A stretch of DNA of 32,347 nt, from positions 1 to 32,347 of the IMG/VR virus record IMGVR_UViG_3300047557_000737; one strand, 5' to 3'. This stretch comes from a virus. A program made the translations under genes and the position numbers. Positions 7,039-14,471 of this stretch are shown in pieces. The notes beneath the pieces are model-generated. The model did no database searches. It saw only the letters and a list, made by a program, of their open reading frames with translations, and had not been told where the DNA came from. Position 1 is the stretch's first letter. Every line of letters begins with the position of its first letter.

Positions 7039-9276
7039 ATGGCAGAAATATCAATCTTCAAAGCCTCCACGGGAAGCGGTGTGCGAAACAACGTCCCGGA
7101 GAGCCACATGCAGTTCGTCCAGTACATTCAGGACATCAAGGACGGCATCTTTTACACCGAGGTCATGGCCTACCGTAAGGCCAAAACCGAGGAAACCAAA
7201 CGAAGGCTCACCGCCGTAACTCCGAGCGGCAAGTTCAAGAAGCAGGGCAAAGACGGCCTTGAAACGCATTCGGGCATTCTATGCATCGACATTGATGCCA
7301 AGGACAACGAAGGCGTTGACGTGCTGGCAATCCGTGATGACGAATACCTCTACGCTCTGCACAAATCAACGGGAGGCGAAGGCTATGCGGCCTACTATCG
7401 TATCGAGCCGGACCGCCACCTGGAAGCGTTCTACGCTTTGGAGAAACGACTTGCGGACAAGTTCCACATCATCGTGGACCCTGCATGCAAAGACGTAAGC
7501 CGTTTGCGGTTCGTCAGTTTTGACCCCGACGCATTCATCACCGCCAAAAACGTGCAGGTGTTCAAGACCTACCTGCCCAAGGTCAAGGCCGCACCGGTCC
7601 CCAAGTTCTATCCCCACGGCGAACACGATGTCGAACACATCCTCCAACAACTGGAGGCCAAGCGCATTGACCTTACGGATTCTTATGCGGATTGGGTGAA
7701 GATTGGATTTGCCATTGCGGCGAAGTACCATGAGCCGGGGGCCGACCTGTTCCATCGGGTGTCAGCGATATCCCCGAAGTACAACCCCGAAGCATGCGAC
7801 CGCAAGTACAAGCAACTCTGCCAGTCCAAGCAGAACCAGGTGTCCTTCGCCTCCTTCATGTGGCTCGCCAAGAACGCAGGGGTCGAAATCCAAACCAAGC
7901 AAACCAAGCACATTGTATCAACCGCCAAGTCCCACCGCATGCGGGTGGGTACCAATGGAGGACCCAAGGACATCAACGCCGCTACCGAAACGGCGGTTCG
8001 CATCCTTCGGGAGATTGACCAAATAAACGTGGAACAGTTGGAGGAAATCGTCGCCAACACCATGGCCCTTGATACTACGGAATTGAAATCCGCTGATACC
8101 GAGGACACTCCGCTAAAGCAAATCAAGGCTTACTTAAGGTCTTTTGACCTGAAGCGCAATGAAGTTACCCGTTGCATTGAACTCAAAGGGGAACCAATTA
8201 CCGACGTTGACATCAACGACCTATACACCGATTGCTTGGAGCAGTTTGGAAGGAAGGAGGTCACCATGCAGTTAATCAACTCAATTATTGATTCAAGCCA
8301 TACCCCGACATACAACCCGTTCATGCAGTTCTTCGCCAAGAACGCCCACCGGACCCCGACTGGCTGCATCAAAGCCCTGACCGATACCATCGTGGCCACA
8401 AATGTCGAACACGCATTCATGCAACTCTGCATCTACAAGTGGCTCTGCTCGGTGGTTGCAAGCATGCACGGTGAATATTCGTTGTCCATCTTGGTCTTAT
8501 GCGGTGACCAGGGTATCGGCAAGACGAACTTCTTCCGAAACCTGCTGCCAACGGAACTGCGGTCCTACTACGGAGAATCCAAACTGGATGCCGGCAAGGA
8601 TGACGAAATTCTTATGTGCAAAAAAATTATCCTCTGCGATGACGAGTTTGGTGGCAAATCCAAGCAGGAGGCCAAGAAACTGAAGGAACTGTCCTCCAAG
8701 CAGACCTTCAGCATCCGCAAGCCCTACGGACGGGTCCACGAAGAACTGACCAGGTATGCGGTGCTTTGCGGCACATCGAACGACGAGGAAGTCATCAACG
8801 ACCTTACGGGGAACCGTAGGATTCTGCCCATCGTTGTGGGCCACATTGATTGGGATGCCTATGCCGCTATCGATAAGACGGACCTATTCATTGAAGCCTA
8901 TCACGCCTATAAGACCCAAGGAGCAGATGCCTGGCAACTGTCCAAGGCCGAAATCACCATGCTGAACGAAAAGACCATGAACAACGTCCAGCCAGCGGTC
9001 GAGAAAGAATTGCTTTTTAACTATTTTGAGATGCCAAACGAAAAGAACAAAGGCATCGGAGCGGAGTGGCTGACCAACTCGGAAATCAAAAACATCCTTG
9101 AATCCTACACCGAGCAAAAAATCAACCCGAACAAACTTGGGGCAGTTCTTAAGTCCATCGGCTGCAAAAAAGTGAGCAGGCACGACCGAAACAACCGAGG
9201 ATGCTATTACCTAGTCACTAAAACGAATAGTAGTAACTATGCGCAAGGCGGTGATAATAAGCGATATCCGTACTAA
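7039..9276 (+). CDS. Primase-helicase (BT4734-type primase + PriCT-2 + VirE helicase)
   Basis: A 745-aa replication protein. Residues about 40-170 match the BT4734/VirE N-terminal primase-like domain, with the acidic pair D84-x-D86 (LCIDIDAKD) as likely metal ligands and a STGGEG loop. Residues about 215-290 look like PriCT-2 (YADWVKIGFAIA). Residues about 470-640 are a VirE-type P-loop helicase: Walker A GDQGIGKT at 489-496, Walker B ILCDDEFGG with D534/D535, and GNRRILPI as a sensor. It should prime and unwind at the phage origin. The candidate origin repeats begin within its last codons and continue downstream. There is no separate DNA polymerase gene, so host Pol III is presumably used. 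Confidence 0.9.
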   Translation: MAEISIFKASTGSGVRNNVPESHMQFVQYIQDIKDGIFYTEVMAYRKAKTEETKRRLTAVTPSGKFKKQGKDGLETHSGILCIDIDAKDNEGVDVLAIRDDEYLYALHKSTGGEGYAAYYRIEPDRHLEAFYALEKRLADKFHIIVDPACKDVSRLRFVSFDPDAFITAKNVQVFKTYLPKVKAAPVPKFYPHGEHDVEHILQQLEAKRIDLTDSYADWVKIGFAIAAKYHEPGADLFHRVSAISPKYNPEACDRKYKQLCQSKQNQVSFASFMWLAKNAGVEIQTKQTKHIVSTAKSHRMRVGTNGGPKDINAATETAVRILREIDQINVEQLEEIVANTMALDTTELKSADTEDTPLKQIKAYLRSFDLKRNEVTRCIELKGEPITDVDINDLYTDCLEQFGRKEVTMQLINSIIDSSHTPTYNPFMQFFAKNAHRTPTGCIKALTDTIVATNVEHAFMQLCIYKWLCSVVASMHGEYSLSILVLCGDQGIGKTNFFRNLLPTELRSYYGESKLDAGKDDEILMCKKIILCDDEFGGKSKQEAKKLKELSSKQTFSIRKPYGRVHEELTRYAVLCGTSNDEEVINDLTGNRRILPIVVGHIDWDAYAAIDKTDLFIEAYHAYKTQGADAWQLSKAEITMLNEKTMNNVQPAVEKELLFNYFEMPNEKNKGIGAEWLTNSEIKNILESYTEQKINPNKLGAVLKSIGCKKVSRHDRNNRGCYYLVTKTNSSNYAQGGDNKRYPY

Positions 9277-9480
9277 CATAGTGACATAGTCACTAAAAAT
9301 GCGATTTTTCTTTAAGCAATATATATGCGTGTGCGTGTGTGCGTGTATGTATATATATATATTCTCTATAGAAAAGTAGTGAATGTAGTGACTATGTGAC
9401 TATAAGTGGCCCTCACGCTATCAAAAACGCAGATTTTTATAGTCACTACTCAATTTTTGCAGTAACTATCAGTAACTATG
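9212..9480 (+). other. Candidate replication origin with iterons and unwinding tract
   Basis: This stretch is non-coding from 9277 to 9477. TAGTCACTA occurs at 9212, 9287 and 9440, with its reverse complement TAGTGACTA at 9386. AGTAACTAT occurs at 9232, 9461 and 9471, and GTGACTATA at 9396. The copy at 9287 forms a perfect dyad TAGTGAC, ATA, GTCACTA (9279-9295). Between them, 9319-9362 is a 44-bp unbroken alternating purine-pyrimidine tract (TA and TG/CG steps), likely easy to melt or flip to Z-form. Repeated binding sites plus an unwinding element between primase and helicase genes fit an origin; a multi-site operator for the helicase gene is the alternative. Confidence 0.6.
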
Positions 9481-10905
9481 TTAAGACCCTACCAAACCAA
9501 AGCCATTGACATGATGCGGTTGAGCCTTGCCGATGGCAAGAAACGCTTGATACTCTGCTCCCCGACGGGAAGCGGGAAGACCGTCATGTTTACCTACATG
9601 GTCGCAAGAGCCTTGGAGAAAGGCAAACAGGCCATCATCTTTACGGACCGAGTGGAACTGCTGAAGCAATCCAACGGAGCCTTGGACCTATTCGGAATCA
9701 AGCCGACCTTAATTGAGGCCAGCAAGACCCGGCTCGATGTTTCGGGGAATTGTTTCATCGCCATGGCCCAAACGTTCAGCCGTAGAAAGGACGCAGTCGA
9801 ATACACGGACCTCCTTAACCGAATGGACCTGGTCATCATTGACGAGGCCCACAAGCAGACCTTCAACCCATTGCTGCCTTACATCAACCCCAAGGCCGTG
9901 GTCATCGGGGCCACCGCAACGCCGCTGCGTCGTGGTAACCAAGAGTGCCTATCCAAGTTCTACGAGGTTTTGCATGTTCCAGTTCAGGTGCAGGAATTAA
10001 TTGACCAAGGGTTCCTCGCCAACCCCGTGACCTATGGTGCCAATCAAGACCTTTCAGGAATCCGCATGAAGGGCAACGATTACGACACCGAGCAGATGGC
10101 AACGGTCTATTCCAAGCGGAGGGTATTTGATGGAGTGGTCCAAAACTACGGGAGGCATTGCAGGGGCAAGAAGGCCATTGTGTTTGCCAGCAACATCGCA
10201 TCAAGCAAAGAGGTTTGTGCCGCCTTGCAGGTTGCAGGCCATAACGCCCGCCATGTGGATGGGACGATGAACAAGCAGGACCGTGCCGATGTGCTGGCTT
10301 GGTTCAAGCACACGCCCGACGCTATCCTTTGCAACTGCGATCTTATGACCACAGGGTTCGACGAGCCAACCATTGAGGTCGTGATCCTATACCGTGCGAC
10401 CGCAAGCCTGCCGCTATTCATGCAGATGGTGGGCCGTGGCTCCAGGGTGACACCAACCAAGAAGGATTTCACCATCCTTGACTTCGGGAACAACGTGCAG
10501 ACCCATGGCTTTTGGGAGAACCGGCAGCAATGGTCCCTCAAAAAGAAACGCAAGAAGAAATCCGATGGCGTTGGCGGTGCGAAGAACTGCAAGGGCTGCG
10601 AGGCGATTATTCCCGTTGGGGCGATGAAGTGCAAGCATTGCGGCTACGAGTACCAGCGCAAACCCCAAGAGCATGGCGAGATGGTGGACCTTCACCTGAT
10701 GACCAAGGCACAGGGCATGCAGTTGGCCACGACCAGCAACATGTACCTAAAGGCACAACTGGCCAAGGCCAAGGTAATTTCACCGTTTTGGGTGTTGCAC
10801 AACCAATGCAAGAGCAAAGCCGAAGCCTTGGAGTTCATCCGATATATGGGATGGAAGCCAGGCTGGGCATTCCACAATAAAGACCGTTTCCCAATCCTTA
10901 AGTAA
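9478..10905 (+). CDS. SF2 DEAH-box helicase with C-terminal zinc ribbon
   Basis: A 475-aa superfamily 2 helicase. Motifs in order: SPTGSGKT at 28-35, IIDEAH with DEAH at 122-125, GATATP at 144-149, TTGFD at 291-295 and QMVGRGSR at 316-323. A basic KKKRKKK stretch leads to a four-cysteine ribbon (C371, C374, C385, C388). It should use ATP to move on DNA in replication, recombination or repair, like the UvsW/RadD-type helicases of phages and bacteria. The ATG at 9478 lies inside the last AGTAACTAT repeat of the candidate origin, so a protein bound there would also control this gene. The VRR-NUC nuclease follows after 4 nt. Confidence 0.9.
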   Translation: MLRPYQTKAIDMMRLSLADGKKRLILCSPTGSGKTVMFTYMVARALEKGKQAIIFTDRVELLKQSNGALDLFGIKPTLIEASKTRLDVSGNCFIAMAQTFSRRKDAVEYTDLLNRMDLVIIDEAHKQTFNPLLPYINPKAVVIGATATPLRRGNQECLSKFYEVLHVPVQVQELIDQGFLANPVTYGANQDLSGIRMKGNDYDTEQMATVYSKRRVFDGVVQNYGRHCRGKKAIVFASNIASSKEVCAALQVAGHNARHVDGTMNKQDRADVLAWFKHTPDAILCNCDLMTTGFDEPTIEVVILYRATASLPLFMQMVGRGSRVTPTKKDFTILDFGNNVQTHGFWENRQQWSLKKKRKKKSDGVGGAKNCKGCEAIIPVGAMKCKHCGYEYQRKPQEHGEMVDLHLMTKAQGMQLATTSNMYLKAQLAKAKVISPFWVLHNQCKSKAEALEFIRYMGWKPGWAFHNKDRFPILK

Positions 10906-10909
10906 TTCC

Positions 10910-11236
10910 ATGCAAGAGTTCAAGATTCAAGCCGAGTGTTTCCAATGGCATTGGAACACCTTTCCCGACCAGCGGGGCCGATTGTTTACTGTAAACAACA
11001 ATGCCCCGTCTGCCTATGCGGGAAGCGTGATGAAGGCTATGGGGGTGGTGGCGGGGGTCAGTGATATGGTGTATTTGTCCAACGCTGGGGCCGTGTTCTT
11101 GGAGTTCAAGGACCCCAAAGGCAAGCAGTCCCTGTCGCAGAAATGGTGGCAGGGGGTCGTTCAGGAGGCGGGGTATAGGTACGAGGTCATCCGAAGCGTG
11201 GAAGATTTCCAACGGGTGTTGGCTGAATGTGGGTGA
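10910..11236 (+). CDS. VRR-NUC domain nuclease
   Basis: A 108-aa single-domain VRR-NUC protein. The family pattern is visible: Q-x-x-C-F-Q-W-H-W near the N-terminus, RLFTVNNNAPS at 24-34, GVVAGVSDMVYL with the catalytic aspartate at about 52, then FLEFKDPKGKQSLSQ with E-x-K at about 65-67, and YRYEVIRSVEDF at the end. Such nucleases are structure-specific or resolve branched DNA. It follows the DEAH helicase after 4 nt, so the two probably act together on branched replication intermediates before packaging. Confidence 0.85.
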   Translation: MQEFKIQAECFQWHWNTFPDQRGRLFTVNNNAPSAYAGSVMKAMGVVAGVSDMVYLSNAGAVFLEFKDPKGKQSLSQKWWQGVVQEAGYRYEVIRSVEDFQRVLAECG

Positions 11237-11793: not shown

Positions 11794-12000
11794 ATGAAAA
11801 CTGCAGACCAAATACTCGCAGAACACGAGGATGCCAACGAGATGCACTTGCACCAGGTTGACCGAGAATGGGTCATCAAAGCGATGGAGGAGTATGCAAG
11901 TCAATCATTTCAAAACCATAATCACAATTATGTCCTCACATCCTTTGAAGGACACCGAGTTCTTAAATGTACCCTTTGCCCATCGATAGCAGCCATATGA
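11794..12000 (+). CDS. 68-aa phage protein, unknown
   Basis: The N-terminal 45 residues are helical (KTADQILAEHEDANE, then DREWVIKAMEEYAS), a pattern shared by many small phage proteins. The C-terminus has HRVLKCTLCPS with one C-x-x-C. No assigned function. The stop overlaps the DnaA-like start (ATGA at 11997). Confidence 0.6.
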   Translation: MKTADQILAEHEDANEMHLHQVDREWVIKAMEEYASQSFQNHNHNYVLTSFEGHRVLKCTLCPSIAAI

Positions 12001-12347
12001 CCCCCGCCCTCATCCACCACCTCGTTGACACCACCGCCGCTATATTCGGCATCACGCCCGACCAGGTGCGCTCCGCATCAAGGGAACGGCCATGCGTTAT
12101 CGCTCGGAACATCGTCGCCGACATCGCCTACAACGAATACCTGTTCACATTCATGGCCATCGGGAAGGAGTTGAACCGCCACTACTCCACGATAATCATC
12201 AACCTTGAATCCTTCCACAACGATTGCAAGGCCAAGCCTCAACTGAGGTACCTACGGAGGCAAGTTTTCAACAACGCCCAAGAGTACTTGCAGACCGCCG
12301 AAGGGGCGTACATAACTGACACTCTGCAACTTCCGAAGCAAGAGTAG
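11997..12347 (+). CDS. DnaA domain IV-like DNA-binding protein
   Basis: A 116-aa protein whose residues about 8-75 match the C-terminal DNA-binding domain of the replication initiator DnaA: FGITPDQVRSASRERPCVIA, then IAYNEYLFTFMAIGKELN and RHYSTIIINLESF, which parallels the RDHSTV signature. The AAA+ ATPase part of DnaA is absent. It could bind the phage origin repeats or compete with host DnaA for its boxes. The ATG at 11997 is chosen because it overlaps the upstream stop and the domain starts there; the frame is open 10 codons further upstream. It lies just before a terminator. Confidence 0.75.
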   Translation: MTPALIHHLVDTTAAIFGITPDQVRSASRERPCVIARNIVADIAYNEYLFTFMAIGKELNRHYSTIIINLESFHNDCKAKPQLRYLRRQVFNNAQEYLQTAEGAYITDTLQLPKQE

Positions 12348-12370
12348 GGCCAAACCGCCTGCCTACCTTG

Positions 12371-12402
12371 GGGGGGTGCTTAACTGCATCCCCCTTTTTT
12401 TT
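12371..12402 (+). terminator. Rho-independent terminator before sigma-like gene
   Basis: GGGGGGTGC (12371-12379), loop TTAACT, GCATCCCCC (12386-12394) form a 9-bp stem with one G-U pair, followed by eight T (12395-12402). It ends the accessory unit 11257-12347 and insulates the sigma-like gene. Confidence 0.88.
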
Positions 12403-12404
12403 GC

Positions 12405-12412
12405 AATCTTTG
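12405..12412 (+). promoter_or_regulatory. -7-like box of sigma-like gene (leaderless)
   Basis: AATCTTTG, one mismatch to TAnnTTTG, begins 3 nt after the terminator T-run and ends 3 nt before the ATG at 12416. The gene therefore seems to have its own promoter and an RNA that starts at the coding sequence. Confidence 0.5.
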
Positions 12413-12415
12413 TGC

Positions 12416-12967
12416 ATGCAGTCAGCCGACCAAGTCATCCTTGACCTCTATCGCACGGGCGAAATCCGAAAGGCGTGCCTTACAATAACAGGCGGCGACC
12501 CGCTTTGGCGTGACTTGGAGCAGGAGTGCGTCCTAATCCTGCTGGAAAAGGACCCCGCCAAAATCCTGCAAATACAGGCGCAGGGCTACTTCAAGTTCTA
12601 TGTGGTTCGGTTGCTGCTGAACCTCTACCGGGGCAAGAACAACCAGTTCGCCCAAAAGTACCGACACCACGATTTGCTGGAGGAACTGAACCCCGATGCC
12701 CCCATATCGCAGGCCGAGTACGATTCGCTGATGGACGACCTTTGGGCCATCGCAGAAGCGGAGATGGACACTTGGGCCAAGGACGGGGCGTTCCCGTACG
12801 ACAAGGAGTTACTCCGTCTGCACCTGCGCACGGGGAATATGAAGAAACTTTCAAGGGACACGGGCATACCGTATCGCTCCATCATTTATTCCATTGACCA
12901 AGCCAAGGCTAAAATCAAGGCCGCAATACAAGCCCATGGACACGCTGATATTTCCCCTGCTGATTAG
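12416..12967 (+). CDS. Sigma-70-family-like regulator
   Basis: A 183-aa protein. Residues about 1-85 resemble sigma region 2: WRDLEQECVLILLEKDPAKI, then GYFKFYVVRLLLNLYRGKNN. Residues about 125-172 resemble region 4 with a helix-turn-helix (TGNMKKLSRDTGIPYRSIIY). It may direct host RNA polymerase to late phage promoters, since packaging and virion genes follow directly. The frame is open to a TTG at 12368 inside the terminator; the ATG at 12416 is chosen because it follows the promoter box and starts the domain. The region 2 match is weak by eye, so a non-sigma transcription factor is the alternative. Confidence 0.65.
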   Translation: MQSADQVILDLYRTGEIRKACLTITGGDPLWRDLEQECVLILLEKDPAKILQIQAQGYFKFYVVRLLLNLYRGKNNQFAQKYRHHDLLEELNPDAPISQAEYDSLMDDLWAIAEAEMDTWAKDGAFPYDKELLRLHLRTGNMKKLSRDTGIPYRSIIYSIDQAKAKIKAAIQAHGHADISPAD

Positions 12968-13187
12968 TTCGCTCACGGCCCTCGCCATTGCGGAGTATCA
13001 TGTCCTCCCACAGGCTTGGTACCGGACTTGGTTTGCCCGGCACAAGCCGTTCAGTTGCGTTACCTGCCTGACCTTTTGGGTGGCGGTGGCCCTGACGCTG
13101 CCTACTTGCGGATGGGTCCTCGCCCCTGTTTACGGCCTCGCCTCGGCAGGGCTGACCGTTGTCATCCTTCAAGTCACCAACCGATGA
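12936..13187 (+). CDS. Small membrane protein (DUF1360-like)
   Basis: An 83-aa protein with about two or three hydrophobic segments: residues 3-20 (TLIFPLLISSLTALAIAEY), 41-58 (TFWVAVALTLPTCGWVLA) and 60-80. The loop between carries KPFSCVTCLTFW, a C-x-x-C-x-x-F-W motif like that of DUF1360 membrane proteins. It overlaps the sigma-like gene by 32 nt; the ATG at 12936 is preferred because the hydrophobic segment starts there. Role unknown. Confidence 0.6.
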   Translation: MDTLIFPLLISSLTALAIAEYHVLPQAWYRTWFARHKPFSCVTCLTFWVAVALTLPTCGWVLAPVYGLASAGLTVVILQVTNR

Positions 13188-13880: not shown

Positions 13881-14055
13881 AGCGTCCAACGATGAAGCGC
13901 AGGTCCAAGCCCGCATGGATTCGCTGATGATGGTCATTACGACCCTCTGCGACTGCATTGGAGCGGTGGATGATTCCAACTCACCCAACGCCTTTGCGGT
14001 CAAGATGAAAATCGTGGACAAGATTGACGAACTGATTGACAAAATAGAATACTGA
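13864..14055 (+). CDS. Small helical protein before terminase (start uncertain)
   Basis: The frame ends at the TGA 14053-14055, which overlaps the small terminase start (TGATG). The core MDSLMMVITTLCDCIGAVDD, then FAVKMKIVDKIDELIDKIEY is helical and probably coiled coil. The start could be the TTG at 13864 (63 aa, overlapping the previous gene by 17 nt) or the ATG at 13915 (46 aa, leaving a 34-nt gap). I favour the TTG because the extra residues look coding and gaps are rare here. No family recognised. Confidence 0.55.
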   Translation: MANSTKASNDEAQVQARMDSLMMVITTLCDCIGAVDDSNSPNAFAVKMKIVDKIDELIDKIEY

Positions 14056-14471
14056 TGGGAGCAGGAAGGCCAAGGATATTTGAAACCCCCGAAGACCTTG
14101 GGAAAGCATGGGCCGCATTCAAGGAGGATGTCAAAGCCCAAGGCGAACAATGGAAGCGGGTGCAGTATGTCGGGAAGGATGGGTTAAAGAAGGAAGACCC
14201 CGCCAAAGTGCCGCTAACCTTGGAAGGGTTTAAGCGGTTTTGCCGCAATAATTACGGAGAGGTCCAGCACTATTTTGACAACACGGATAAAGCATACGAA
14301 GAATTCTGTGTCATCTGCCGTGCGATTCGGGAGGAAATCCGAGAGGACCAAATCATCGGTGGGATGCTTTCGTTCTACAACCCCTCCATCACGCAGCGGT
14401 TGAACGGTCTTGTAGAGAAGCAGGAAACGAGCATCACCATCGAGCAGCCGTTGTTCGGCGATGGAGTTTAA
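14055..14471 (+). CDS. terS: Terminase small subunit
   Basis: A 138-aa protein with the DNA-packaging small subunit pattern: GAGRPRIFETPEDLGKAWAA at the N-terminus, VPLTLEGFKRFC in the middle, CVICRAIREEIREDQIIGGM and a C-terminal NPSITQRLNGLVEKQ block. It should recognise phage DNA, oligomerise and regulate the large subunit. It overlaps the small helical gene by one base and the large terminase by 11 nt, the usual coupling of these two genes. Confidence 0.85.
   Translation: MGAGRPRIFETPEDLGKAWAAFKEDVKAQGEQWKRVQYVGKDGLKKEDPAKVPLTLEGFKRFCRNNYGEVQHYFDNTDKAYEEFCVICRAIREEIREDQIIGGMLSFYNPSITQRLNGLVEKQETSITIEQPLFGDGV

Follow-up and report, generated by a model that had tools for sequence, protein, structure and literature searches.

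A stand-alone DnaA domain IV protein with two alleles in a freshwater phage family: a candidate regulator at an operon junction

Introduction

The full DnaA initiator carries an AAA+ domain with Walker motifs besides its C-terminal domain IV (PF08299), which has been solved bound to DNA for Escherichia coli (1j1v) and Mycobacterium tuberculosis (3pvp). In E. coli DnaA, bases are contacted by positions 399, 423, 432-435 and 438-439, according to the contact description in PMC5043019.

Flavobacterium phages are already known to have annotated stand-alone DnaA domain IV proteins. The tailed Flavobacterium phage tooticki (Muminvirus) encodes one, gp026 (QHB41019.1), which its depositors annotated with PF08299, labelled 'bacterial helix-turn-helix protein' and provided with the note 'bacterial DnaA helix-turn-helix'. 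Two further proteins, that of PJN03 (UXN81013.1) and a Riemerella relative, share the domain at their N-terminus and differ by a fused region, which in PJN03 matches phrog_503 and is weakly restriction-nuclease-like. Other phage proteins likewise touch the host initiation apparatus, namely YfdR of an E. coli cryptic prophage and ORF104 of phage 77, but these bind the DnaA or the DnaI protein and are not described as DnaA domain IV in the abstracts on them (PMC4776307, PMC4887207). A literature search of open-licence PMC papers gave no recognised account of the function of a stand-alone or phage DnaA domain IV.

Here, a protein of this kind is described from a virus record of 32,347 bases, which was analysed over its whole length and is called the window.

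Results

A protein of 116 amino acids is encoded on the plus strand of the window at 11997-12347, and the start of its gene overlaps by four nucleotides (ATGA) with a small upstream ORF of 68 amino acids (11794-12000, plus strand) that is optional in relatives. Given that the gene carries 145 synonymous versus 27 non-synonymous variants in 80 related loci, it is a real gene under purifying selection. The product matches PF08299 (Bac_DnaA_C) over residues 8-68 with 35.2 bits, above the gathering cut-off of 31.5 (E 1.3e-8). Three NCBIfam DnaA models align with it by their C-terminal end alone, and no AAA+ domain was matched by the Pfam and NCBIfam models. A profile built from 19 phage proteins alone finds the DnaA chains in the PDB (E 5.7e-7). 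The AlphaFold2 model, obtained with 19 phage proteins as input, has a pLDDT of 87.5 and a pTM of 0.84 and was compared with known structures by VIA. It matches 3pvp with Z 15.2 (rmsd 1.4, 96 residues aligned) and 1j1v with Z 14.5 (rmsd 1.5, 93 residues aligned), while the best non-DnaA chain reaches only Z 5.3. The family match, the restriction of the DnaA models to their domain IV end and the predicted structure thus confirm the original prediction that this is a DnaA domain IV that stands alone, with domains I-III, and with them the ATPase, absent. With such a fold, the protein should bind DNA specifically.

The features of the locus from the primase/helicase to the next gene lie on the plus strand. 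Upstream of the gene are a primase/helicase (7039-9276; BT4734-like_N, PriCT_2 and VapE-like), a candidate origin with TAGTNACTA repeats (9212-9480), an SF2 (DEAD/ResIII) helicase recognised by domain and family matches (9478-10905), and a VRR-NUC-type nuclease (10910-11236) that matches phrog_824/phrog_93 and stays just under the Pfam cut-off. The DnaA domain IV gene closes its unit: it is followed by an intrinsic terminator, beyond which the next unit begins. The terminator consists of a hairpin (12370-12395) and a T run (12395-12402), both retained across relatives despite sequence change. A conserved T-run/GCAATCTTTG element precedes the next gene: just 5' of its start codon stands TTTTTTTTGCAATCTTTG (12395-12412), which is nearly or fully invariant in an alignment of 81 sequences and is possibly a promoter or a leader.

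The next gene (12416-12967) encodes a conserved slot partner of 183 amino acids. Its product has no Pfam or PHROG match and gives a low-confidence model (pLDDT 57.9), and for these reasons no claim is made that it is a sigma factor. Its conservation is very high, and the last ten codons are free of synonymous variation because they overlap with another ORF (12948-13187).

Further downstream come the terminase genes, the small subunit lying about 1.7 kb and several genes away from the DnaA domain IV gene in the window. In a more distant locus (L159), no other sizeable ORF stands between the DnaA domain IV gene and that of the terminase small subunit, the gap being 335 nt. Across the window (14055-14471) and its relatives the small subunit falls into discrete classes (about 39, 50 and 90% identity), while the large subunit is near-identical. 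Firmicutes phages encode small DNA-binding late regulators of the RinA/ArpU type shortly before their terminase genes; these may be positional analogues of the window protein, whose host would belong to a different phylum.

In this freshwater phage family, the DnaA domain IV gene occupies one fixed place. The slot holds either the protein found in the window (type I) or a type II protein of 149 amino acids (144 in three loci), which has an N-terminal extension and is 44% identical to type I. Two censuses of the slot were made. In one, loci were picked by the neighbouring gene only, and among the most similar 80 of 468 relatives, 73 had at least 400 nt of upstream DNA and 7 were too short; the slot held type I in 60 of the 73, type II in 12 and a disrupted type I in one. 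The other relied on a scan with a DNA pattern, for which 80 loci are listed of 119 reported; among the 75 testable, 61 carry type I, 14 carry type II and none has an empty slot. The two censuses overlap, and the combined 148 loci amount to 82 haplotypes (70 type I, 12 type II). In one contig (L211:1765-2041) a type I copy is missing the helix-turn-helix stretch and its frame is broken, which is either a real deletion or an assembly error.

Both alleles occur with both nuclease alleles (the 62% and the 95% class) and with all three classes of the terminase small subunit, and the neighbouring gene differs between the types (0.123) about as much as within them (0.118 and 0.111). The cassette thus reassorts with the modules tested. 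After either allele the same kind of terminator is found, followed by TTTTTTTTGCAATCTTTG before the next gene. The pattern of two discrete alleles in one slot, independent of the modules tested, is new in this analysis.

The part of the protein expected to read bases was placed by alignment with 1j1v (chain 374-467), with the numbering counted by hand. Fold and length agree with DnaA domain IV, but the window protein has one residue fewer ahead of the reading helix. The arginine of the minor-groove loop, R399 in E. coli, is retained as R29 (12081-12083) and is invariant in 19 aligned phage proteins. The base-reading helix, codons 61-68 (R-H-Y-S-T-I-I-I; 12177-12200), is aligned with positions 432-439 of E. 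coli DnaA, the contact positions being those of PMC5043019, and R432 is retained as R61. Four other members of the canonical DnaA-box residue set are replaced (D433 by H62, H434 by Y63, T435 by S64 and H439 by I68), and P423 and L438 are substituted by M53 and I67. The RHYSTI motif, which had been read as a DnaA signature, therefore deviates from that signature (RDHTTV in E. coli) and is no example of it. Residue 63 is a histidine in two relatives (L015 and L182).

In the wider phage alignment, type II reads R-D-H-A-T-I-x-H and most of the distant homologues read K-D-H-[AS]-T-I-I-H; tooticki gp026, which is 21-28% identical to the window protein, keeps K-D-H-A-T-I-I-H. Of 11 DnaA sequences fetched from the Flavobacteria family, nine were readable, with R-D-H-A-T-V-L-H in six and K-D-H-S-T-V-M-Y in three. 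From these comparisons, the type II head looks like that of cellular DnaA, while the type I head looks re-written. The altered type I head was dropped as proof of altered specificity, given that R-H-Y-S-T-I-I likewise occurs in a full-length DnaA encoded on a faecal contig (L084). Four faecal contigs deposited as 'Bacteriophage sp.' (L083, L084, L086 and L087) carry full-length bacterial DnaA genes and are probably host DNA.

A noncoding element of 57 nt is found in type II loci (L164-L178, L186, L191, L193 and L239), downstream of the stop codon and ahead of the terminator. Among 14 type II haplotypes, one of its 57 columns is variable versus 46 of 177 in the flanks, that is, 41 of 150 columns immediately before it and 5 of 27 columns of the hairpin that follows; the binomial value for this difference is 7e-7, a figure that ignores shared ancestry. 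The element shows no difference among 13 haplotypes, in which the four-fold sites of the type II gene diverge by an average of 22% and by up to 45%. A DnaA box is not found within the element, the best match having three mismatches. On its own it folds no better than shuffles (z 0.41) and Rfam holds no family for it, so it is likelier to act as DNA than as RNA; the Rfam search gave one sub-threshold miRNA match, in a simple-repeat stretch of the window. Together with the terminator it folds somewhat better than shuffles (z -2.03), so that the two combined may act as RNA. Judged by its conservation and position, the element is the best candidate for the binding site of the type II protein.

The 57-nt element is absent from the window, and its counterpart in type I loci is a short variable spacer between stop codon and terminator. 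A binding site hidden within the type I gene was considered and rejected, since synonymous diversity is nowhere reduced along the gene (permutation p 0.89).

The candidate origin holds, within 9212-9448, four exact copies of TAGTSACTA and one copy with a single mismatch, clustered between primase and helicase. It had been noted that this origin has no DnaA box, which holds for the whole window: TTATCCACA has no exact occurrence there and one copy with one mismatch. The existence and clustering of the repeats are in favour of the proposal that the DnaA domain IV protein binds the TAGTCACTA repeats instead, as an adaptor that recruits host factors to the phage origin. This was examined by mapping the genes of the window onto 80 related loci, in which the upstream DNA was long enough in 44 and too short in 36. 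The window's helicase is present in 26 of the 44 and absent from the other 18, and among these 18 a DnaB-type module is found in L039 and L053 (by Pfam) and in L004 (99% identity to the L039 DnaB). The DnaA domain IV protein is 95-100% identical throughout the mapped loci, whichever replication module adjoins, and in L002 and L004 it is identical to that of the window although the window's primase and helicase are both absent.

The repeats themselves behave differently. Among the 39 loci searched, several of which end near the repeat region so that their negative result is weaker, TAGTNACTA is found in eight, exactly those whose primase/origin DNA is about 90% or more identical. In the seven loci with a diverged primase that were examined, the repeats become GTAGTCACT-type units. 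Five of the diverged primases, 75% identical overall, show 49% identity in their last 95 residues and 74-82% in the rest, while the DnaA domain IV protein in such loci stays 95-98% identical. Since the repeats change with the C-terminus of the primase and not with the DnaA domain IV protein, they are assigned to the primase allele and most likely follow its C-terminal part. Between the window (8989-9480) and five loci (L076, L034, L056, L064 and L011) the 95-residue primase tail and the repeats co-vary, which suggests that the tail reads the origin. The DnaA domain IV protein shows neither the co-occurrence nor the co-variation with the repeats expected of an iteron-binding initiator. Binding to these repeats is thus contradicted by the comparison, and a role as origin adaptor has become very improbable.

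Other stand-alone DnaA domain IV proteins are encoded by Muminvirus (gp026) and by a series of contigs (L155-L163), and five of the eight distant homologues tested score above the Pfam cut-off. No gene of the window was found beside gp026. Of 10 other phage loci tested, 6 have a VRR-NUC gene immediately 5' of the DnaA domain IV gene, and a phrog_62 helicase lies upstream in five of six loci tested, the sixth (L159) having a primase/helicase match. In several contigs (L155-L158 and L162) a similar ORF of about 60 amino acids seems to come after the DnaA domain IV gene, and its product is a possible partner. The region fused to the domain in PJN03 (L085/L154) and in a Riemerella genome (L329) has weak similarity to a restriction-type nuclease. 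A second PHROG scan, with the distant homologues, gave no functional name, and a further search found no new distant relatives among the matches listed (80 loci).

When compared with the GTDB species genomes, the alignment of the two alleles had no match and the wider alignment had one, in Riemerella anatipestifer. A second, short-frame PF08299 match (102-214 amino acids) occurs in 8 of 120 genomes of the Riemerella family, above the cut-off in three of the eight. From the relatives of the DnaA domain IV protein, the host of the window phage is inferred to be of Bacteroidota type.

Discussion

The explanation that we tentatively prefer is that the DnaA domain IV protein is a local DNA-binding regulator at an operon junction, which we consider plausible but not established. 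It rests mainly on the pairing of a protein that has a DNA-binding fold with a constrained noncoding stretch. The protein would bind DNA near the 3' end of its own gene and would thereby affect either termination or the onset of the transcription unit that follows, which probably continues towards the terminase genes. The two alleles in the slot would probably differ in specificity. Type II, with its DnaA-like head, would have the 57-nt element as its best candidate site; type I, with its changed head and a short variable spacer, would not read the TAGTCACTA repeats. Several observations weigh against this explanation. The binding site of type I was not found, its spacer being variable and its gene devoid of a conserved hidden stretch, and both allele classes share one promoter-like element despite their differing heads. 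It is also possible that the 57-nt element has been homogenised by recombination. The L211 copy without the helix-turn-helix may mean that the gene is dispensable, or the contig may be wrong.

The protein could instead act on the host, as a decoy without ATPase that occupies the DnaA boxes of the host oriC and of DnaA-regulated promoters, thereby halting host replication or redirecting it. This is an unlikely explanation that nonetheless deserves attention, given that the protein is a complete domain IV fold without AAA+, that phage and prophage proteins which inhibit initiation are known (YfdR and ORF104 of phage 77; PMC4776307, PMC4887207), and that free reassortment fits a protein directed at the host. 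The type II head is close to the R-D-H-A-T-V-L-H found in six of the nine Flavobacteria-family DnaA proteins, and exact TTATNCACA is absent from the window and from the eight type II loci examined, so that the sites for a reader of DnaA boxes would lie on the host. The decoy nevertheless fits type II better than type I, the allele of the window and of the majority, in which four base-reading positions are altered, and the near-invariant element that adjoins type II speaks for a site on the phage. An avoidance of DnaA boxes by the phage was treated as a weak sign. The window has one near-match versus 6.4 expected from dinucleotide shuffles, but Markov shuffles of order 2-4 place this depletion at 2-6% and a set of 1,680 letter permutations places it at 10%. 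A count over 11 related records gave 32 near-matches versus 56 for a reversed control pattern, these records being related to one another and perhaps fragments.

That the protein directs the VRR-NUC nuclease and the SF2 helicase to particular sites, so that the genome is processed or host DNA broken down, is improbable. The gene order in the window (helicase, nuclease, DnaA domain IV), the VRR-NUC gene directly upstream in the majority of the other phage loci and the PJN03 fusion would fit such a partnership. However, the nuclease allele is unlinked to the DnaA domain IV allele, several small ORFs intervene in the window, and the nuclease-like region fused in PJN03 is not a VRR-NUC; helicase and VRR-NUC neighbours are, moreover, often found in phage replication modules. 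About equally doubtful is a repressor or immunity-type regulator whose target would be an early promoter in another part of the genome, in which case the alleles would represent two immunity specificities; two discrete alleles exchanged at gene boundaries in one slot are what such a regulator would show.

Going back to the regulator at the operon junction, a fuller version of it can be proposed, which is speculative and in its entirety rather unlikely: a phage family would have adopted the reading head of DnaA, stripped of its motor, to serve as a switch where two operons meet, in two interchangeable alleles of different specificity. Of these, type II would read in the manner of host DnaA and be accompanied by a near-invariant 57-nt site of its own, while type I would have a re-written helix and a different site.

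The co-variation of primase and repeats provides a testable pair for origin recognition in this family. The fixed slot, together with a candidate site that is paired with one allele, allows the function of the DnaA domain IV protein to be addressed directly by gel-shift and reporter assays. Proteins of this kind are found in diverse phages, several of them tied to Flavobacteria-type hosts. If the proposal is true, it would follow that a protein essential for replication has a reading head that is detachable and re-usable.
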